Assembly: GCA_938002655.1 (NCBI GenBank)
Contig: CALLAC010000017.1
Span: forward strand, 62,001 to 126,000
Length of the DNA: 64,000 nt
Origin: an uncultured Cytophagales bacterium
GTDB taxonomy: Bacteria; Bacteroidota; Bacteroidia; Cytophagales; Thermonemataceae
Direction of reading: 5' to 3'
Shown: positions 39,680 through 59,310 of the stretch, piece after piece
How positions within the stretch are numbered: the stretch's first letter is position 1
Layout: every line of letters begins with the position of its first letter
Notes under the pieces: generated by a model
Database searches by the model: none
What the model was told of the DNA's origin: nothing
The model's input: only the letters and a program-made list of their open reading frames with translations
Made by a program: the position numbers and the translations under genes

Positions 39680-39713
39680 GTTAGAATGCCAAATTGCTTG
39701 AAATTTGCAAAGA

Positions 39714-40499
39714 ATGAGAGAGCAAATCAAGATTTTTTGGGTGGCTTTGATGTTTTACACGCGTATTCCTTGCCCCAAAAGTACTTCACATGCCCCTGCG
39801 TATCTCAATAAAGCTACTCGTTTTTTTTCGTTGATTGGCTGGATAGTAGGCGGAATTTCATTTTTAACTTTCTGGGTAAGTAACTGGCTTTTTGAGCATA
39901 TCTCTATGGCGACCCTCATAGCTTTGGCAATGGGTATATGGGTTACGGGAGCATTTCATGAAGATGGCTTAGCCGATACTTTTGATGGTTTTGGTGGTGG
40001 TTGGAATAAGGAAAAAATTTTAGAAATTATGAAAGATAGCCGTATCGGGACTTTTGGTGTGCTTGCTCTTATTTTTCTGATGCTTTTCAAATGGGTGGCT
40101 TTACAAAATATTCTTATTCATACAGGCAATTCTGCTGAAATTTTACTCATTTTTCTTTCTTTCCATTCGCTTGCTCGCCTAAATGCGGCTAATATTATTT
40201 TCAGTTCCCGATATGCCCGCGAAGATGAACAAAGTAAAGCCAAGCCTATCGCTCAAAGTTATGGAAAAGCAGAAGTTGTAGGAGTGTATGTATTTGGACT
40301 GCTACCACTCGTTTTTTTGAGTTGTTGGAAGATAATGGCTCTGTGGACTGCTATTCCTTTGGGCTTGCTTTTTTTCTTTGCCAAAAGGTATTTTGAAAAA
40401 TGGATAGGCGGCTACACAGGCGACTGCTTGGGGGCAGTTGAGCAACTTTCTGAATGTTGTATTCTTTTGACTTTTGCGGCAATATGGAAGTATACGTAG
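39714..40499 (+). CDS. cobS: adenosylcobinamide-GDP ribazoletransferase (cobalamin synthase)
   Basis: A 261-residue integral membrane enzyme joining adenosylcobinamide-GDP to alpha-ribazole, the last assembly step of cobalamin. Seen are FWVALMFYTRIPCP at the N-terminus, the conserved active-site block GAFHEDGLADTFDGFGGGW with its acidic metal ligands, and IMKDSRIGTFGVLAL, followed by several membrane helices. The ATG at 39714 is chosen over a TTG three codons earlier. It overlaps cobC by 16 bases. cobU/cobT are not adjacent, so the pathway is completed elsewhere. Confidence 0.93.
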   Translation: MREQIKIFWVALMFYTRIPCPKSTSHAPAYLNKATRFFSLIGWIVGGISFLTFWVSNWLFEHISMATLIALAMGIWVTGAFHEDGLADTFDGFGGGWNKEKILEIMKDSRIGTFGVLALIFLMLFKWVALQNILIHTGNSAEILLIFLSFHSLARLNAANIIFSSRYAREDEQSKAKPIAQSYGKAEVVGVYVFGLLPLVFLSCWKIMALWTAIPLGLLFFFAKRYFEKWIGGYTGDCLGAVEQLSECCILLTFAAIWKYT

Positions 40500-41047
40500 T
40501 GCGTCATACGGCGGTAGAAGTAGAAAAAGACCTTTGCTATGGACAAATGGAAGTACCCTTAGCCGATACTTTTGCAGAGGAAGCCCGCTTTTTGCAAAGC
40601 AAGTTGCCCGACAACTTTGATGCCATTTATTGCAGTCCTTTGATGAGATGCCAAAGACTTGCTCAGCAACTATCTTACAAAAATATTTTTTACGAGACAG
40701 CCATTACAGAGATGAATTTTGGTAAATGGGAAGGTAAAAAATGGAATGATATCAATCAAGAGGAGCTACACAAATGGATGGAGAATTTTGTAGATATACC
40801 TACACCCAAAGGTGAAAGTTTATCAGGGCTTTATCAGCGAGTAAGCAATTTTATGAATGATTTACGAAAGAAAGAATATGGAAAAGTCTTGATTATCACA
40901 CATGCAGGTGTGATACGCTGTTTGTGGGCTTATCTTTTAGAAATTCCCTTGTACAATATTTTCAAAATTCCTGTGGCTTATGGGGAAATATTTGCCTTTT
41001 CTTTGGGAAAAATTTCTAAAAATGATCGAATTTTTATGAAAAGCTAA
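40484..41047 (+). CDS. cobC: alpha-ribazole phosphatase (histidine phosphatase family)
   Basis: A 187-residue phosphoglycerate-mutase-like phosphatase. The catalytic His is in YVVRHTAVEVEKDLCYGQ, where RHT replaces the usual RHG, a form common in CobC; the second active-site His is in VLIITHAGVIRCL, and AIYCSPLMRCQRLAQQL is the family's third block. It removes the 5'-phosphate from alpha-ribazole phosphate or cobalamin phosphate. The ATG at 40484 lies inside cobS (stop 40499), giving translational coupling that supports the assignment. Confidence 0.88.
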   Translation: MEVYVVRHTAVEVEKDLCYGQMEVPLADTFAEEARFLQSKLPDNFDAIYCSPLMRCQRLAQQLSYKNIFYETAITEMNFGKWEGKKWNDINQEELHKWMENFVDIPTPKGESLSGLYQRVSNFMNDLRKKEYGKVLIITHAGVIRCLWAYLLEIPLYNIFKIPVAYGEIFAFSLGKISKNDRIFMKS

Positions 41048-41057
41048 TTTTTTTTCC

Positions 41058-41065
41058 TATCTTTG
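41058..41065 (+). promoter_or_regulatory. -7 promoter element ahead of the cobalamin riboswitch
   Basis: TATCTTTG fits TAnnTTTG perfectly and sits just upstream of the riboswitch, which would put the transcript start near 41072. A -33 TTG is not found at the preferred spacing. Confidence 0.5.
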
Positions 41066-41067
41066 CG

Positions 41068-41242
41068 TTGCATTTGGTAGCCTACTTGCTATCGCAAGCA
41101 GGCTTTAATAGGGAATACGGTGCAAATCCGTAGCTGTCCCCGCAACTGTAAGTCGTAATAAAGGTTTTGTCAAATCCCCTGCCACTGCCCTTGTATAGGG
41201 TGGGAAGGCTGACAAAATACGACAAGCCAGGAGACCTGCCAA
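41068..41242 (+). ncRNA. cobalamin (B12) riboswitch
   Basis: The conserved core is clear: GGGAATACGGTGCAAATCCG and GCTGTCCCCGCAACTGTAA (41111-41151), and the 3' B12 box AAGCCAGGAGACCTGCC (41224-41240). A 5' closing stem is visible (GCCTACTTGC / GCAAGCAGGC, 41080-41104). The element lies 130 bases before the ATG of the BtuB-like receptor, where it would switch expression off when adenosylcobalamin is plentiful. A small UUCG-loop hairpin at 41255-41275 may belong to the expression platform. Confidence 0.95.
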
Positions 41243-41371
41243 ATGAACCGTCTTTTTCAGAGCCTTCGGGTGAAAGGTGCTGAAATGCAAAATTTTTAGC
41301 AAGTAAGCTCTTGCTCATTTTTTACATTTCACAGCTTTTACAAAAGGCTTTTTGCAAAAAAAGTCTTTAAG

Positions 41372-43213
41372 ATGCGTTTTGTATTTTGCTTGCTGAGCTA
41401 TCTTTTTTGGCAAATTATTTTTGCCCAAGATACTATTGCCCCCATTGAGGTAAAAGGCTATGCTTACAAACGCTATGCAGTAGGAGCAAAATCTTGGCAA
41501 GCTGATAGCCTGCTTTTAGCTCAAAATGCAGGAAATTTGGCTTCGGAGTGGCTTTTGCGTTATAGTGGCGTATATTTGAAAGAGTATGGCAACGCAATGT
41601 TAGGCACAACAGCTTTCAGAGGTACTTCGGCAGGGCATACGGCAGTAATTTGGAATGGAGTCAATATCAATTCGGCTACACTCGGAGAAAGTGATTTAGC
41701 TACTTTGCCCGTTTTTGCTAATTCTGAGATAACTTTGCAAATGGGTTCGGCATCGTCGCTTTTTGGTTCGGAAGCTATCGGAGGAGCTATCTTACTTTCA
41801 AACTTGCAGAACTTTACCGAAAATTTTTTGCAATTGAGGCAAGAAATAGGAAGTTTTGGCAGAAATTTTACAGGCTTACATTTTTCGCAAGCTAACTCAA
41901 ATTGGCAAATCCGAAGTAATTTTTATCGGTTTTCTATCCAAAATAACTACAAAATACCTGCTTTGCTTGGCGAAATTGAAAATAACACGCCCGTAAATTA
42001 TTTTGGTACAAATCAGGATTTTTTCTTACAACTTTCTAATAATCAGCGATTTTCTTTTCATAATTGGTTGCATTCCAATTTTAGGCGTTTGAAGAATGGA
42101 GCTATACTTTTAGAAAAAAATTGGCGTACTGCAATGGTTTGGCAAAAAAAATTTCTGAGAAATTGGCTCTTGGAAGGAAAAGCCGCTTATATCAACGATT
42201 TGATGCTCTACAATAGGCAAGATACTACGCAAACAAGGCGTTGGGTAGGAATTATGCAAATACAGAAAGAGCTGGGGAAAGTTAGTTGGCAAGCAGGTTG
42301 GCAAAGTCAATACTTTTTGATGAACGTTGATGCTTATGGTGAGCCCAAAACTGAACTGCGAAATGATGCCTTTCTGCTTACCCGTTTACAGATTTTACCT
42401 GCTTGGGTAGTAGCTTTCAATGCCCGACAAGTCTGGGTAAGTGGTTATCAAACACCTTTTACACCTGCTTTGGGTTGGGAGTGGTGTTTTTGGCAAAAAA
42501 ATAGTAATACTTTGCTTTGGAAATGGCAAATAAGCAGAGGCTATCGCTTGCCTACGCTCAATAGCCGATATTGGCAACCTGGCGGCAATCCGAATATTGC
42601 TCCCGAACATAGCTGGAATTACGAAACAGGTTTCGTCTTTGAGCGGAAAACTTTCAAAAGCCGTTTCTACACCGAAATCACTGCCTACCAAATGCAAGTA
42701 AAAGACTGGATTGTTTGGCAACCCACTGACCAAGGGTTTTGGTCGCCACAGAATTTGCAAGAGGTACGCTCGCAAGGTTTAGAACTATCTTCACATTTTT
42801 ACCAAAAAATCAATGACCATTGGAAGAGCCAATTCTGGTTCAATTATACTTATAATTTGGCTCGTATTGAGCAAATTCGGAATGATGTGAGCAATCGTTT
42901 TGCAGGCAAAATTTTACCTTATGCTCCCCAAAATCGTTGGAGTGCTACAACATATCTCAACTACAAGACACAAAGCCTGCTTTTTACGATATATCTCACT
43001 GATAAGCGTTTTACGGATTTAGATAACATTCAGTTTGTAAAACCTTTTTGGGTAAGCGATTTGCAATGGAGTAAGGTTTGGCAGAGTGAAAAAATAAGAT
43101 GCCAAATAGCTTTACAGATAAATAATTTATTTAACCGAAGCTATGAAAATATTTTAAATCAATTTATGCCCAAACGAAACTACCAGGTAAATATCAGTAT
43201 ACATCTGAAATAA
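41372..43213 (+). CDS. TonB-dependent vitamin B12 receptor (BtuB-like)
   Basis: A 613-residue outer-membrane receptor. A signal peptide (MRFVFCLLSYLFWQIIFA) is followed by a TonB-box-like DTIAPIEVKGYA, the plug domain (GTTAFRGTSAGHTAVIWNGV; MGSASSLFGSEAIGGAILL) and a beta-barrel with many alternating aromatic strands, ending YQVNISIHLK. It is smaller than the SusC-type receptors of the phylum and near the size of E. coli BtuB. The cobalamin riboswitch directly upstream makes cobalamin import the most likely job. Two further genes follow within 20 bases each. Confidence 0.88.
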   Translation: MRFVFCLLSYLFWQIIFAQDTIAPIEVKGYAYKRYAVGAKSWQADSLLLAQNAGNLASEWLLRYSGVYLKEYGNAMLGTTAFRGTSAGHTAVIWNGVNINSATLGESDLATLPVFANSEITLQMGSASSLFGSEAIGGAILLSNLQNFTENFLQLRQEIGSFGRNFTGLHFSQANSNWQIRSNFYRFSIQNNYKIPALLGEIENNTPVNYFGTNQDFFLQLSNNQRFSFHNWLHSNFRRLKNGAILLEKNWRTAMVWQKKFLRNWLLEGKAAYINDLMLYNRQDTTQTRRWVGIMQIQKELGKVSWQAGWQSQYFLMNVDAYGEPKTELRNDAFLLTRLQILPAWVVAFNARQVWVSGYQTPFTPALGWEWCFWQKNSNTLLWKWQISRGYRLPTLNSRYWQPGGNPNIAPEHSWNYETGFVFERKTFKSRFYTEITAYQMQVKDWIVWQPTDQGFWSPQNLQEVRSQGLELSSHFYQKINDHWKSQFWFNYTYNLARIEQIRNDVSNRFAGKILPYAPQNRWSATTYLNYKTQSLLFTIYLTDKRFTDLDNIQFVKPFWVSDLQWSKVWQSEKIRCQIALQINNLFNRSYENILNQFMPKRNYQVNISIHLK

Positions 43214-43221
43214 GCTAAACA

Positions 43222-43797
43222 ATGCCAAATCACGAAGACAAGGTTTGTCCAGCTTGTGGTAAGGTTTTTGAGTGTAAACTCGGAAGTATTACGATTTGTC
43301 ATTGTTTTTCAGTGCATTTAAGTAAAGAAGAAACATGCTATTTGCAAGAAAGATACGATGATTGTCTTTGTAATGAATGTTTGTGTAAAGTTCCTAAACA
43401 ATATCAAGCTATGCAAGAATACGCTGCACAAATTCAAGCTGCTGAAACACGCATCTTCAAAGTGGTATTTCCCAATACTACTAACCACTATGATACCCTT
43501 TTCGGGGGAACAGCCCTGCAAATTATGGATGAAGTAGCCTTTATTACTGCTACACGTTTTTGTAGAAAACGAGTTGTGACGGTTTCTTCCAGCAAAATTG
43601 ATTTCAAAAAGTCTATTCCTGCTGATACTATTATTGAAGTAGTTGGCAAAATTGTACGCTTGGGTAGAACAAGCCTTGATGTTGAAGTAGAAATCTTTAA
43701 GGAAGAAATGTACGAAGCTAAGCGTGAGCAAGCCATTAAAGGTGTTTTTACCTTTGTTGCAATAGATGAAAATAAAAAACCTGTTCCAATTATTTAA
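43222..43797 (+). CDS. cysteine-rich CWC domain fused to acyl-CoA thioesterase (hotdog)
   Basis: A 191-residue two-domain protein. Residues 1-57 have ten cysteines in the CWC pattern (CPACGKVFEC, ICHC, CLCNECLC), which probably bind zinc or another metal; the second-block CWC reads CHC. From about residue 70 the protein is a YciA-type hotdog thioesterase: FPNTTNHYDTLFGGTALQIMD, with catalytic Asp103, and TVSSSKIDFKKSIPAD. CWC-domain proteins are often short stand-alone genes in B12 loci of this phylum; finding one fused to a thioesterase is unusual. It starts 9 bases after the BtuB-like receptor and 19 bases before the propeller lipoprotein, so it is in the riboswitch operon. Confidence 0.82.
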   Translation: MPNHEDKVCPACGKVFECKLGSITICHCFSVHLSKEETCYLQERYDDCLCNECLCKVPKQYQAMQEYAAQIQAAETRIFKVVFPNTTNHYDTLFGGTALQIMDEVAFITATRFCRKRVVTVSSSKIDFKKSIPADTIIEVVGKIVRLGRTSLDVEVEIFKEEMYEAKREQAIKGVFTFVAIDENKKPVPII

Positions 43798-43815
43798 CCT
43801 AAAAATTCAAATCGT

Positions 43816-44910
43816 ATGAAAAAAGTTTTTCGCAACTTGTTTTATGGTTTGTTAGCCAGTAGTTGGCTAACAGCTTGTAGTACCTCAGACCCTCAACCCT
43901 CTTCGGGAAAGTATGGAAGGGGTACGCTTGTTATCAATGAAGGTAATTTTTCGCAAGGCAATGGCTCGTTGAGCTTCCTAAAAGAAGATGGTACAATAGA
44001 AAATAATGTGTTTGAAGCTGAAAACGGAGGAAATAGCGTAGGTGGTATCATACAATCTGTGCAAGGGTATTCATTAGGTTTTTTTGCAAATAATGTAGAT
44101 AAGCTTGCTATTGTTACGAATAACCAGGACAAAGTGATTATTTGCGATGCCGATACGCTCAAGGCAGTAGCTGTTATTCAAGGAAATAATGCTGTGGAAA
44201 ATCCACAGGCTTTCGCCGCAGTAGGAAACAGAGGATTTGTAACTAACTGGGGACCTATTGCCGATGCCTTCGGTCCTAATCCCAAAGGTTTTCTTACAGA
44301 AATCAATTTACTGACACGTACTTTTGTCAGGAAAATTCCACTTACTGGGGTTCGCCCACAAGGTATAGTTTCTGCCAACAATAAAATTTATGTAGCCGAT
44401 AACAATGCCGATAAGGTTTTAATTTTTGATGCCTCTGGCAACCAAATAGGTAATATTACTGTTGATAACCAACCTGATAAACTCGTAGTAGATGCTTTTG
44501 GCAAAATTTGGGTCATTTGTAATAGCAACCCCGATTTTGTGAATTTTATTGATAACAGAGGCGTGCTGATAAAAATTAATCCCTCTACCGACCAAATAGA
44601 GGCTACTATCAACAATGTGCCTTGTGGTGCTTTTAATTCTAAAATTGCTGTTTCCCCTGATAGAGTTTTTGTACTTTCAGGCAAGAAAGTATTTGCAATA
44701 AATACAGAAACTAATGCTGTGTTTGAGTTTGTCGATAATGCCGATTTTAGTTTGTATGGTTTAGGGGTAAATCGTATTACGCAAGAAGTATTTATCGGAG
44801 AAGCAACTTTCACCCAAGCCAGTCGTGTACGTCAACTTTCGCCCACAGGTAATTTGATACGTGAAGTAACTGCGGGTGTGGGTACAAATGGTTTTGTATT
44901 TTACAGATAG
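43816..44910 (+). CDS. beta-propeller lipoprotein (DUF5074/YncE-like), candidate BtuG-type B12-binding protein
   Basis: A 364-residue lipoprotein with lipobox LTAC (Cys21) followed by STSD. The mature part consists of six or seven propeller blades with recurring NxVGN-like and GNxxGxI turns, for example LAIVTNNQDKVIICDADTLK, GIVSANNKIYVADNNADKVL and VDAFGKIWVICNSNPD. In Bacteroides the surface lipoprotein BtuG is a propeller that hands B12 to BtuB; this gene is third in a riboswitch-led operon with a BtuB-like receptor, the same arrangement. Functional equivalence is inferred from context and fold, not from conserved binding residues. Confidence 0.75.
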   Translation: MKKVFRNLFYGLLASSWLTACSTSDPQPSSGKYGRGTLVINEGNFSQGNGSLSFLKEDGTIENNVFEAENGGNSVGGIIQSVQGYSLGFFANNVDKLAIVTNNQDKVIICDADTLKAVAVIQGNNAVENPQAFAAVGNRGFVTNWGPIADAFGPNPKGFLTEINLLTRTFVRKIPLTGVRPQGIVSANNKIYVADNNADKVLIFDASGNQIGNITVDNQPDKLVVDAFGKIWVICNSNPDFVNFIDNRGVLIKINPSTDQIEATINNVPCGAFNSKIAVSPDRVFVLSGKKVFAINTETNAVFEFVDNADFSLYGLGVNRITQEVFIGEATFTQASRVRQLSPTGNLIREVTAGVGTNGFVFYR

Positions 44911-44927
44911 ACTTTCTGAAAAAGACG

Positions 44928-44954
44928 AAGGGCTTTACTTTGAGTAAAGCCCTT
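44928..44954. terminator. strong bidirectional terminator between the B12 operon and nrdA
   Basis: A perfect 12-base stem AAGGGCTTTACT / AGTAAAGCCCTT with a 3-base loop, followed by TTTTT on the plus strand. It lies between the ends of the propeller lipoprotein gene (44910) and nrdA (44982). Confidence 0.85.
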
Positions 44955-44981
44955 TTTTCACTTGATAGATTTGATTATTTT

Positions 44982-47354
44982 TTATCCACTGCAAGATTGA
45001 CAAGCATCGGGGTTATCAAGAGAGCAAGCCATATCTTTGAGTTTTTGCTCGGAAGTTATTTCCTTTCCTTGCTGAACTTCCTGCAACACGTTGGTATCTG
45101 TGGTAAATTTTATGGCACTTGCGGCAGCTTGTGTACGCATATAATACATTCCTGTTTTCAAGCCCAATTTCCAAGCGTAAAAATGCATAGAAGTTAGTTT
45201 GCCAAAGTTAGGTTCTTTGACAAATACGTTTAGGCTTTGGCTCTGACAAATAAACGCTCCTCTATCTGCCGCCATTTCCAAGATAGATTTTTGCTTGATT
45301 TCCCAAGCCGTTTTGTAAATTTCTCGGATATTCTCGGGTATTTCTTTAATTTCTTGGATAGAACCATCATAAGCTTTGATTTTCTCACGCATTTTCTCAT
45401 TCCAAAGCCCAAGATCTATTAAATCTTTGAGTAAATGTTTGTTTACAACAATAAATTCGCCCGAAAGCACTCTACGATTATACATATTGCTGGTATAAGG
45501 CTCGAAGCATTCGTTATTTCCTAAAATTTGTGAAGTAGAAGCTGTGGGCATAGGAGCAAGGAGTAGAGAGTTTCTTACGCCGTGCTGTAAAATTTTTTGT
45601 CTCAAGCCTTCCCAATCCCAGCGGCCAGAGGTAGGCTTTACCCCCCACATATCAAATTGAAATATACCTTGTGAAATAGGAGAGCCTTCATATGTTTGGT
45701 AAGGTCCGTATTTTTGGGCAAGTTCCATAGAGGCTTCCAGAGCGGCGTAGTAGATGGTTTCGAAAATATCTTTATTCAAACCACGAGCCTCTTCACTATC
45801 GAAGGGCATGCGAAGCATAATAAAGACATCGGCTAAACCTTGCACACCAATTCCAATGGGGCGATGGCGTTTGTTGCTACGTTCTGCTTCGGGTACAGGA
45901 TAGTAGTTGATATCAATGATTTTATTCAGGTTACGCGTAACCACTTTGGTAACTTCGTAAAGTTTCTGATGGTCAAATCTGCCATTGAGAACATATTTGG
46001 GCAAAGCCAAAGATGCCAAATTGCAAACTGCTACCTCATCAGGCGAAGTATATTCAATGATTTCGGTACAGAGATTAGAGCTTTTGATAGTTCCTAAATT
46101 TTTCTGATTGGATTTGCGGTTGGCGGCATCCTTGAAAAGCATGTAGGGTGTACCTGTTTCAATCTGTGATTCTAATATATGAAACCACAAGTCCTGAGCT
46201 TTCACCACTTTTCTTGCTCTTCCTTCTAGTTCATATTTTTCGTACAAACGCTCAAACTCTTCGCCATAGCATTCGTGTAAGCCCGGAGCTTCGTTGGGGC
46301 AGAAAAGCGACCAAGTTTCGTTGGCTTCTACGCGTTTCATAAACAAATCGGGTATCCATAGAGCATAAAATAAATCTCTTGCACGCAATTCTTCTGCTCC
46401 TTGGTTGCGTTTCAGTTCTAAAAATTCAAAAATATCGGCATGCCAAGGTTCGAGATAAATAGCAAAAGCTCCTTTGCGTTTGCCACCTCCTTGGTCTATG
46501 TAACGTGCCGTATCATTGAAAACTTTCAGCATAGGAACGATACCATTCGAATAGCCATTAGTTCCTTTGATATAAGAACCTGTGGCTCTGATATTATGAA
46601 TAGAGAGCCCTATGCCTCCTGCCGATTGAGAGATTTTTGCACATTGTTTGAGCGTGTCGTAAATGCCATCTATGGAGTCTTCTTTCATTGTAAGCAAGAA
46701 GCAGCTAGATAGTTGTGGTTTGGGTGTACCTGCATTGAATAGGGTGGGGGTAGCGTGAATAAACCACTTTTCAGACATGAGATTGTAAGTTTCGATGGCG
46801 GCTTCGATATCATCTTTATGTATGCCTACTGCTACACGCATAAACATGTGTTGGGGGCGTTCTACGACTTTGCCATTCATTCGTAGCAAATAAGATTTCT
46901 CGAGTGTTTTGAAGCCGAAGTAATCAAAATGGTAGTCTCTATCGTAAATGATAGTAGAATCTAATAAAGCGGCATTTTTACGAATAACCTCATAGACATC
47001 TTTGGCGATAAGCCCTGCATTTTCGCCTGTTTTGGGGTCTATGTATTCGTAAAGCCTTTTCATAGTGTTAGAAAAAGACTTACTAGTTTCTTTGTGCAAA
47101 TTAGAAATTGCAATTCGAGCTGCTAAGATAGCATAGTCAGGATGTGTAGTAGCCATAGCGGCGGCAGTTTGTGCCGCAAGTTCATCAAGTACCGTAGTAG
47201 GGATTTTATCATAAATACCTGCAATCACCCTTTTTGCAATTTCCACAGGCTTTACAAAACGCATATCCAAGCCATAGCACAGCTTTTCAATACGTGCCGT
47301 GATTTTATCAAATTTCACGGACTCTAAACGACCATCTCTTTTTTGTACTAACAC
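44982..47354 (-). CDS. nrdA: ribonucleoside-diphosphate reductase, alpha subunit (class Ia)
   Basis: A 790-residue catalytic subunit converting ribonucleotides to deoxyribonucleotides. An N-terminal ATP-cone ([19 protein letters not shown]...) is followed by the barrel with active-site cysteines in [24 protein letters not shown] (Asn-Cys-Glu) and [25 protein letters not shown], the radical-path tyrosines in [10 protein letters not shown], and the C-terminal CxxC (ACQSCSG). The start is GTG at 47354; no ATG gives a full ATP-cone. nrdB is not in this window. This class does not need B12. Confidence 0.94.
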
Positions 47355-57153: not shown

Positions 57154-59310
57154 ATGGCAACAGATATAAAAAAGATTACTTTTGAGGCTTTGTGGCAGAA
57201 TGTAACAGAAATTTCTTTGCAAGCTGACAAAAGCTGGAAAACTCCTGAAAATATAACCGTAAAGAATGTTTATTCTTCTACCGATTTACAAGAGGTAGAA
57301 CATCTACACTTTGGAGCGGGTATTCCACCATTTTTGCGGGGTCCGTATAGTACAATGTATTTGCAACGCCCTTGGACTATCCGTCAGTATGCAGGATTTT
57401 CTACGGCAAAAGAGTCTAATGCTTTTTATCGCCGTAATCTTGCCGCAGGGCAAAAGGGGCTGTCTGTTGCCTTTGATTTGGCTACGCATCGTGGCTATGA
57501 CTCTGACCATCCACGCGTTGTAGGCGATGTAGGCAAGGCAGGGGTTGCTATCGATAGTGTGGAGGATATGAAAATCCTTTTTGAAGGCATACCACTCGGC
57601 GAAATGTCTGTTTCTATGACAATGAATGGAGCCGTTATTCCGATAATGGCTTTTTACATTGTGGCCGCCGAAGAACAAGGAGTGCCGCCTTCGGCTCTTT
57701 CAGGAACTATCCAAAATGATATTCTCAAAGAGTTTATGGTACGTAACACGTACATTTATCCGCCCGAACATAGTATGCGTATCATTGGGGATATTTTTGC
57801 TTATACGGCTCAAAATATGCCTAAATTCAATAGTATCAGTATTTCAGGCTATCATATGCAAGAAGCAGGTGCTACTGCCGATTTAGAGCTTGCCTATACC
57901 CTTGCCGATGGATTGGAGTACATTCGCACAGGATTGAAAGCAGGATTAGATATTGATGATTTTGCCCCTCGTCTCTCGTTTTTTTGGGCAATTGGTATGA
58001 ATTACTTTATGGAAATTGCAAAAATGCGAGCAGGTAGAATGCTTTGGGCTAAAATTGTTAAACAATTTAATCCGAAAAAAGCTATTTCTATGGCTCTTCG
58101 AACGCATTGTCAAACTTCTGGATATAGCCTGACAGCCCAAGCCCCTTTCAATAATGTAGCTCGTACTACCATCGAAGCCCTTGCAGCGGTACTAGGGCAC
58201 ACCCAATCTTTGCACACCAATTCGCTCGATGAAGCCATTGCCTTGCCCACAGATTTCTCGGCTCGTATTGCACGAAATACCCAACTTATCTTGCAAGAAG
58301 AAACCGCTGTTTCTCAAACCGTTGACCCCTGGGCTGGTTCGTACTATGTAGAAAAACTCACCCATGACCTAGCTCATAGAGCTTGGGAACTTATCCAAGA
58401 AATAGAAAGCTTGGGCGGAATGGCAAAAGCCATTGAAACAGGCTTACCTAAAATGCGTATCGAAGAAGCCGCCGCAAAAAAACAGGCTCGTATCGATGCA
58501 GGCAAAGAAATTGTGATAGGTGTAAATGATTTTCAGTGGGAGAAAGAAACAGAGATTGAAGTTTTAGAAATTGATAATACGGCTGTTCGTCATGAGCAAA
58601 TTGAAAGATTACAAAAAATTAAAGCAGAAAGAAACAACGAAGCAGTTCAACAAGCTCTGAATGCTATTACTGAGTGTGCTCAAACAGGCAACGGCAATTT
58701 ATTAGACTTAGCTGTAAAAGCGGCACGATTGCGAGCCACACTCGGCGAAATTTCCGATGCAATGGAAAAAGTTTTTGGCAGATACAAAGCTACTATTCGT
58801 GCTATTTCTGGCGTGTATGCTTCCGAAATTTCTGATGATGAGCATTTTAAAGAAGCACAAGCTATGGCTAACCAATTTGCCCAATTAGAAGGAAGACGCC
58901 CCCGTATTATGATTGCCAAAATGGGACAAGACGGACACGACCGTGGTGCCAAAGTCATTGCCACTAGTTTTGCCGATTTGGGCTTTGATGTAGATATGGG
59001 CTCGCTGTTTCAAACCCCCGAAGAAGTTGCTCGCCAAGCCGCCGAAAACGATGTTCACGTTATTGGAGTTAGTTCATTAGCGGCTGGGCACAAAACACTT
59101 GTACCTCAGCTTATAGAAGAGCTCAAAAAAATTGGCAGAGAGGATATTCTTGTAATTGTGGGTGGGGTTATTCCTCCACAAGATTATCAATTTTTGTATG
59201 ATGCAGGTGTAGCAGGTGTCTTCGGACCAGGTACTGTCATTGCTGTTGCCGCTCAACAAATCCTGAAAAAACTATTGACCGAAGACGAAAGTAAAGGATT
59301 GAAAGCCTAA
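57154..59310 (+). CDS. mutB: methylmalonyl-CoA mutase, large subunit
   Basis: A 718-residue adenosylcobalamin-dependent isomerase interconverting (R)-methylmalonyl-CoA and succinyl-CoA. The substrate barrel has [55 protein letters not shown] and [20 protein letters not shown]; the C-terminal B12 domain has the base-off motif [11 protein letters not shown] (His contacts cobalt) and [12 protein letters not shown]. Length and both domains match the catalytic subunit. The small subunit usually found just upstream is absent: the neighbour there is a divergent lipoprotein. Its last four bases overlap asnB. It gives a clear use for the B12 genes at 39714-44910. Confidence 0.94.

Follow-up and report, generated by a model that had tools for sequence, protein, structure and literature searches.

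A cobalamin-riboswitch operon of a Raineya genome with a CWC-thioesterase fusion between BtuB-like and BtuG-like genes

What is a gene for a predicted acyl-coenzyme A (acyl-CoA) thioesterase doing between the two genes of a vitamin B12 uptake system? This question is raised by a locus in the window analyzed here, a 64-kb stretch (contig C17:62001-126000) of the 2.64-Mb genome labelled G000 from Raineya, a moderately thermophilic hot-spring genus of the Cytophagales. In this locus, a cobalamin riboswitch is followed by genes for a BtuB-like TonB-dependent receptor, a fusion of a CWC domain with a 4HBT-type thioesterase, and a BtuG-like beta-propeller lipoprotein. We found that the CWC-thioesterase is a recurrent member of B12-riboswitch operons and is the most informative part of the locus, and we judge it likely that positions 41058-44955 form a B12-starvation operon in which an uptake pair is joined by the thioesterase as a further regulon member. 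The uptake pair is of a known kind, and the control by riboswitches of isozymes that replace B12-dependent enzymes is likewise known.

The aptamer lies at 41058-41257 on the forward strand and matches RF00174 over its full length (1-189 of 189), scoring 124.3 bits where the cut-off is 31.5 (E 9.3e-31), which bears out its earlier designation as a clear cobalamin riboswitch. It is the sole Rfam match at curated cut-offs in the window, and one RF00174 match was found in the whole genome. Folding of the leader (41058-41400) gave a z-score of -3.3, and a hairpin with a T run, picked up by the terminator-like scan at 41298-41315 (+) between the aptamer and the start of btuB, is a candidate expression platform. 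Since just 8 nt separate the receptor gene from the fusion gene and 18 nt the fusion gene from the propeller gene, the three genes probably form a single operon under the riboswitch. An intrinsic terminator at 44927-44955 (+), with a 13-pair stem and a T run, marks the end of the operon; its stem is the longest among 18 terminator-like sites, where shuffles lead one to expect 9.9 sites. Profile, Rfam and terminator scans located all of the features listed in a preliminary description of this DNA, namely cobS, cobC, the riboswitch, the TonB receptor, the CWC-thioesterase fusion, the propeller lipoprotein and the terminator, in the places given there.

The CWC-thioesterase and its linkage to cobalamin riboswitches

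The middle gene of the operon (43222-43797, +) encodes a protein of 191 aa, with a CWC domain at residues 9-54 (PF14375) and a 4HBT hotdog domain at about residues 71-191 (PF03061, 67.3 bits). The CWC domain scores 39.9 bits against a gathering cut-off of 24 and carries CHC instead of CWC as its central motif. Foldseek searches with an AlphaFold2 model of the fusion (pLDDT 84.9, from an alignment mixing CWC-only and thioesterase-only rows) led to acyl-CoA hydrolases, with 2eis of Thermus as the best match at 48% identity. Asn88 and Asp103, which are of the catalytic type, align with Asn28 and Asp43 of a Staphylococcus aureus hydrolase, the residues mutated in 5egj and 5egk according to the titles of these structures, and neither varies among the 23 aligned homologues. 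Judged from the model, the product of the middle gene is predicted to be a 4HBT acyl-CoA thioesterase with a hotdog fold and a catalytic-type Asn and Asp. It has the fold and the Asn/Asp positions in common with hotdog acyl-CoA hydrolases of the YciA/ACOT7 type (Thermus thermophilus TTHB207, 2eis; S. aureus 5egl), while its N-terminal CWC domain and its linkage to a cobalamin riboswitch set it apart from them. The YciA equivalog model NF007970 gave 47.5 bits, far under its cut-off of 162. As a function of the hotdog domain, 3-aminobutyryl-CoA ammonia lyase is not favored (22.4 bits against a cut-off of 160).

In a sample of 59 genomes from the order, 24 thioesterase homologues scored at least 103 bits, and 88 weaker thioesterases scored 73 bits or less. 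A same-strand cobalamin riboswitch lay within 5 kb upstream of 10 of the 24 strong homologues (11 of 24 within 8 kb) compared to none of the 88 weaker thioesterases (Fisher 3.5e-8 and 4.8e-9, with related genomes treated as independent), and in G036 and G052 the thioesterase gene directly follows the riboswitch. A sample of the phylum, which shares G000, G035 and G036 with the order sample, contained a homologue at E 1e-25 or better in 41 of 395 genomes; searches across more than 40 genomes used stricter filters. Eighteen of these 41 thioesterases, from 10 of 12 families, are located within 5 kb of an above-cut-off riboswitch and 7 within 205 nt, where random placement would give about 0.04 for the 18 (Poisson, assuming a 4.5-Mb genome and treating genomes as independent). 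Five further thioesterases of the phylum sample have a riboswitch match below the cut-off.

The genes that accompany the thioesterase include two B12-independent isozymes. The order riboswitch-metE-thioesterase was found in G266, G414 and G304 (L243-L245, with metE identified by phmmer), and riboswitch-metE-CWC-thioesterase in G021. Class I ribonucleotide reductase genes occur with the thioesterase in G075, G088, G160, G301, G325 and G437, the small subunits being confirmed by Pfam in all six; the riboswitch of G437 is below the cut-off. In G325, riboswitch, metE, nrdB, nrdA and thioesterase stand in a single run, with 6.2 kb between riboswitch and thioesterase, which places this genome outside the count of 18.

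Plasmids add a second set of contexts. A thioesterase homologue at E 1e-20 or better is present in 62 plasmid records, from which we examined 15 loci picked for variety rather than at random. All 15, which belong to Deinococcota and Pseudomonadota, have ribonucleotide reductase, methionine synthase or methylcitrate genes near the thioesterase. Ribonucleotide reductase genes are nearby in 10 loci (Deinococcus, Thermus, Allomeiothermus, Azospira and Shinella), with an annotated beta subunit in 9 of the 10, and methionine synthase in 5 (Sphingomonas, Novosphingobium, two Shinella and Sinorhizobium), four of which have a DUF1852 gene, two of them divergent. Methylcitrate-cycle genes are in line with the thioesterase in 2 of the 15, as prpD-prpC-prpB in Paracoccus and acnD-prpF in Novosphingobium. 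An above-cut-off cobalamin riboswitch lies 5' of the thioesterase or its operon in 9 of the 15 loci, and one more has a match just below the cut-off; the match of Thermus thermophilus HB8 is weak (32.7 bits against 31.5). Two 4-Mb plasmid records labelled Proteus mirabilis (NZ_OL790811.1 and NZ_OL790812.1) carry a homologue at 62.5% identity that looks out of place.

Control by cobalamin riboswitches of isozymes that replace B12-dependent enzymes is described in the available text of a regulon survey (PMC3766115), whose main text, as available, does not contain the words "thioesterase", "acyl-CoA" or "hydrolase". The thioesterase resembles metE and the class I nrd genes in being linked to the same riboswitch family, sometimes within a shared operon, and differs from them in that it is not an isozyme of any B12 enzyme. 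Two uncharacterized proteins, the CWC protein and the thioesterase with its solved Thermus homologue 2eis, here become regulon members with a substrate hypothesis. A regulon database may list an acyl-CoA hydrolase (achX) under cobalamin riboswitches, and we therefore claim no priority for the thioesterase as a regulon member. In the open-access literature searched, neither the thioesterase nor the CWC domain was found as a B12-regulon member, apart from a CWC domain listed in a Sulfurospirillum cobamide gene cluster in the available text of PMC7755780, and nothing was found under the names DUF5522 and PF14375.

CWC domain and thioesterase are fused in five genomes of the order sample (G000, G001 of the same genus, G002, G015 and G021) and are encoded by neighboring genes in four (G010, G030, G035 and G045, the CWC domain of the last being below the Pfam search). 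Five CWC proteins picked by length have a DUF5522 tail in place of the thioesterase. Within the order sample, 8 of 17 CWC genes are found within 5 kb downstream of a riboswitch, and in 42 further genomes 10 of 43 CWC genes are so placed, where 0.09 would be expected. These 42 genomes, scanned with RF00174, come from the phylum sample, which has 106 CWC genomes, and comprise all 26 outside family f37 and the order plus 16 of the 77 of f37; three more (G000, G017 and G035) were covered through the order sample. CWC genes also stand among genes for cobalamin assembly, in the order riboswitch-DUF6580-BtuF-type protein-CWC-CobU-DUF71-CobT-CobS-CobC in G304 and CWC-CobU-DUF71-CobT-CobS-CobC-riboswitch-BtuB in G139, and a CWC gene adjoins CobT in G052. 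In G398, the riboswitch is followed by CWC, biotin carboxylase, carrier and mmdA/PccB-like subunit genes, the last of which is below its cut-off.

Other genes recur around these loci. A DUF71/COG2102 gene (by PF01902 or phmmer) stands beside CobU, CobT, CWC or thioesterase genes at L114, L109, L234, L230, L231 and L250. DUF71 is a protein family other than those of the thioesterase and CWC domain, but like them it has been linked to B12 through its neighborhood, having been predicted in 2012 to act in B12 salvage from its position near B12 genes (PMC3541065); its adjoining of a thioesterase or CWC gene in several genomes is in line with that prediction. At L114:6403-6984 and L234:9061-9618, each in a B12 operon, the riboswitch or receptor is followed by a DUF6580 protein, which might, at a guess, be a transporter of B12 or a precursor. 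At the f37 CWC loci L127-L140, the preceding gene encodes a protein of 483-485 aa in 7 of 14 cases, a FGGY-type kinase in the one examined. At the f5 loci L091 and L093, the CWC gene lies between a P-type ATPase-like gene, which has a Mntp-like neighbor, and a TonB receptor, a context of metal rather than B12.

The BtuB-BtuG-type pair

The receptor gene (41372-43213, +) encodes 613 aa with PF00593 and PF07715 domains, and its nearest solved relatives are BtuB3, BtuB2 and BtuB1 of Bacteroides thetaiotaomicron (phmmer, from 8e-53 for BtuB3, 8p98, to 7e-21), in agreement with its first reading as BtuB-like. Escherichia coli BtuB matched at 5e-9 or weaker and over the plug only, and the NCBIfam TonB-B12 equivalog model gave 77.5 bits, far under its cut-off of 599.7. 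According to the available text of PMC10404256, Tyr538 in loop EL8 of BtuB3 is the sole receptor residue in contact with B12, and the position is also aromatic in BtuB1 and BtuB2. Index 538 of the 8p98 chain is the Tyr of GFYSP, opposite which the receptor of the window has Trp457 in GFWSP. Across 23 aligned receptors, this column holds Trp in 18, Tyr in 4 and Ser in one, giving an aromatic residue in 22; since the paper's numbering for the rest of EL8 could not be reconciled with the chain, the mapping is one by index and pattern.

The propeller gene (43816-44910, +) encodes a DUF5074 protein of 364 aa (PF16819, 84.7 bits) with the lipobox LTAC, whose Cys21 is invariant in 30 of 30 aligned rows, and an acidic residue at +4 hints at a surface export signal. 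Using phmmer, it matched BtuG2 (5.5e-12), BtuG3 and a Bacteroides uniformis homologue at 5e-12 to 2e-9. The preliminary description had named structure prediction and comparison with BtuG as one test that could refute its reading. When the AlphaFold2 model (30 sequences, pLDDT 90.1, pTM 0.86) was searched against the PDB with Foldseek, ranks 1-19 were all taken by BtuG1, BtuG2, BtuG3, the B. uniformis protein and BtuK1 (E 4e-22 to 5e-15), the best being 8bmy (4.1e-22, TM 0.74/0.80), so that the reading withstood this test. The next entry, rank 20, is an archaeal YVTN protein at 3.5e-13, roughly two orders of magnitude behind rank 19 and nine behind rank 1. The corrinoid-contacting aromatic residues of BtuG2 given in the available text of PMC10404256 are Trp194, Trp272, Tyr316 and Tyr335. 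With BtuG2 residue numbers mapped onto the alignment through an index offset of 31, the counterpart of Tyr316 is likewise a tyrosine, Tyr314 (24 of 30 rows have Tyr there), Tyr335 corresponds to Phe332 (25 Phe and 4 Tyr of 30 rows), and Trp272 corresponds to Phe273.

The locus resembles the BtuB-BtuG loci 1-3 of B. thetaiotaomicron in being a presumably riboswitch-controlled operon with a BtuB-type receptor and a BtuG-type propeller lipoprotein of the same predicted fold, and an aromatic residue occupies the B12-contacting receptor loop position here too. It is unlike these loci in its Raineya (Cytophagales) host, in an operon without another lipoprotein gene, and in the CWC-thioesterase between btuB and btuG.

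The propeller query had matches in 44 of the 59 order genomes, and riboswitch-BtuB-BtuG was the commonest layout among the 49 of 59 order loci covered in full (L097-L106 were covered in part). A receptor-alignment scan of named species genomes had its best loci in Raineya orbicola SPSPC-11 (81% identity) and a Raineya metagenome-assembled genome. Among the best 80 of 405 confirmed receptor loci from named species, a BtuG-profile gene lies downstream within 6 kb in 76 and within 300 nt in 71, a B12 box is present within 700 nt upstream in 70, and both box and BtuG are present in 68. The box was defined as at most one mismatch to a degenerate consensus, a pattern with 84 matches in the 2.73 Mb that both strands of these 80 loci make up. 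The Rfam riboswitch was found in 8 of the 8 loci scanned for it, at ~3.3 kb upstream of the receptor in L154. Hosts include Rufibacter, Pontibacter, Adhaeribacter, Fulvivirga, Algoriphagus and Bernardetiaceae, and Rufibacter, Pontibacter and Algoriphagus are environmental genera. On a Persicobacter psychrovividus plasmid, a riboswitch, one hypothetical gene, a TonB receptor gene and a DUF5074 gene are consecutive.

The suggestion that the BtuB-BtuG arrangement extends beyond gut species was supported, with the pair, mostly together with a riboswitch or B12 box, occurring in many Cytophagales. The idea that BtuG-like genes are rare outside Bacteroides was rejected. These data suggest that uptake of B12 by lipoprotein-capped receptors is widespread among Cytophagales rather than a gut invention. 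The locus in the window appears to be a new, apparently non-gut member of the already known BtuB-BtuG pair. This is a modest step because BtuG has already been described as a Bacteroidetes family, being exclusive to Bacteroidetes in a survey of 313 human gut strains according to the available text of PMC6143338; the available texts of PMC12578637, PMC13398666 and PMC8941943 make no mention of BtuG outside the gut.

Variants of the pair were also observed. At the f2 loci L056, L071, L081 and L088, a cobalamin riboswitch lies directly 5' of btuG with no BtuB-profile receptor adjoining. DUF4465/DUF5074 proteins of B12 operons at L063:10457-11839, L066:2671-4293 and L122:8386-9705 have type IX secretion tails (PF18962), which may give capture proteins another route to the surface. 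Sulfatase-modifying-factor-like (PF03781) proteins occur in B12 riboswitch operons with BtuG at L060:12561-14099 and L069:6000-7520.

Proposed role of the thioesterase and its alternatives

At low cellular cobalamin, the riboswitch would permit expression of btuB, the CWC-thioesterase gene and btuG, which B12 would otherwise repress. BtuG would then act as a surface lipoprotein lid that captures corrinoid and passes it on to BtuB, through whose barrel it is imported by way of TonB, like the B. thetaiotaomicron pair. The acyl-CoA thioesterase would belong to one starvation response together with two B12-independent isozymes, MetE and class I ribonucleotide reductase, and may hydrolyze CoA esters that are stalled behind idle B12-dependent acyl-CoA mutases, releasing CoA until B12 returns. 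That its substrate is methylmalonyl-CoA, propionyl-CoA or a relative has, in our estimate, slightly less than an even chance.

This CoA-relief step is proposed because the window genome has a methylmalonyl-CoA mutase and further PF01642 genes, because 23 of the 24 thioesterase genomes in the order sample have a gene of the PF01642 mutase family, compared to 22 of the 35 others (p 0.003), and because the methylcitrate-cycle neighbors of the thioesterase and the carboxylase neighbors of the CWC gene are enzymes that handle propionyl-CoA. The mutase gene, mutB (57154-59310, +; NF006944, 1336.7 bits; PF01642 and PF02310), lies outside the operon and creates a demand for the cofactor, and its early assignment as a B12-dependent enzyme proved correct. 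Among the further PF01642 genes is a frame of 1168 aa that looks like IcmF, a name taken from its length, and a frame of 1327 aa in the same genome carries the PF02965 domain of cobalamin-dependent methionine synthase.

More broadly, we tentatively propose that several phyla share a so far little-noticed B12-starvation arm, in which a riboswitch-controlled thioesterase would unload methylmalonyl- or propionyl-type CoA while the mutases idle, as a complement to MetE in place of MetH and to class I ribonucleotide reductase in place of the B12-dependent enzyme. The Raineya version would be fused to a B12-linked CWC domain and packed between BtuB and BtuG. If this proposal is true, the CoA esters that pile up without B12 are the substrate of the thioesterase, and their accumulation is the bacterial counterpart of the metabolite build-up that occurs in B12 deficiency.

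A sizeable minority chance belongs to a different explanation, in which the thioesterase is a true member of the B12-starvation regulon with a substrate unrelated to the mutases, serving, for example, general tuning of free CoA or acyl-CoA or requirements of MetE and class I ribonucleotide reductase for metal or redox supply. Ribonucleotide reductase neighbors do outnumber propionate ones in the plasmid loci (10 versus 2 of 15), and the solved hotdog relatives include broad-specificity acyl-CoA hydrolases. An unrelated substrate fits less well with the methylcitrate-cycle genes beside the thioesterase in those two loci, with the riboswitch operon that joins a CWC gene to biotin carboxylase, carrier and mmdA/PccB-like subunit genes, and with the near-constant presence of a mutase-family gene in order genomes having the thioesterase.

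Several observations weigh against our reading of the locus as a B12-starvation operon with a mutase-linked thioesterase. The mutase association drops to p 0.04 among genomes of at least 2.5 Mb, with genomes treated as independent, and G056 is a thioesterase genome without a mutase-family gene. No above-cut-off riboswitch was present within 5 kb of 14 of the 24 thioesterases of the order and 23 of the 41 of the phylum, including 12 of 13 in f26, and no riboswitch was found in 5 of the 15 plasmid loci (three Deinococcus, Allomeiothermus and Paracoccus). Similarly, none of the CWC genes examined in f37 (0 of 16), f23 (0 of 7), f43 (0 of 5) and f26 (0 of 2) has a riboswitch in the 5 kb upstream of it. 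Finally, the propeller is only ~20% identical to BtuG2 and has no counterpart of its Trp194, two further departures from the B. thetaiotaomicron loci.

These last two points would suit a propeller that is a DUF5074/YVTN surface protein for another ligand, its place in the operon being a relic. We consider this very unlikely, given that Bacteroides BtuG and BtuK proteins fill the first 19 Foldseek ranks and that, throughout an order, the gene is often found together with a receptor of the BtuB type and a riboswitch or box for B12. Least probable of all is that the CWC-thioesterase is a housekeeping passenger, near riboswitches by chance or through shared descent of one operon: over half of the strong homologues do lack a riboswitch within 5 kb, and the CWC/thioesterase pair also occurs away from riboswitches (G035), but under one family of riboswitch the partners differ by lineage (btuBG, metE, nrdAB or none), a pattern spread over at least 10 families and three phyla, and in the 59 order genomes none of the 88 weaker thioesterases is near a riboswitch.

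Flanking genes

Upstream of the riboswitch, cobS, for adenosylcobinamide-GDP ribazoletransferase (39705-40499, +), matches PF02654 with 193.9 bits and NF001277 with 278.3 bits against a cut-off of 273, and it overlaps by 46 nt with cobC, for alpha-ribazole phosphatase (40454-41047, +; TIGR03162, 185.9 bits, cut-off 162.9). The position first given to cobS was correct, while its start shifts from 39714 to a TTG codon at 39705. In the window genome, which has cobS and cobC, CobU gave a sub-cut-off match only (21.5 bits, in a 496-aa frame at C18:25322-25678). Riboswitch control of cobS and cobC was considered and rejected, as both genes end upstream of the aptamer; since the riboswitch starts 10 nt past the cobC stop, its control would be limited to 41372-44910.

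Downstream of the operon and convergent to it, 44982-47354 (-) encodes a class I-type ribonucleotide reductase large subunit (TIGR02506). In the relative G312, a CWC gene lies directly 3' of the equivalent large-subunit gene.

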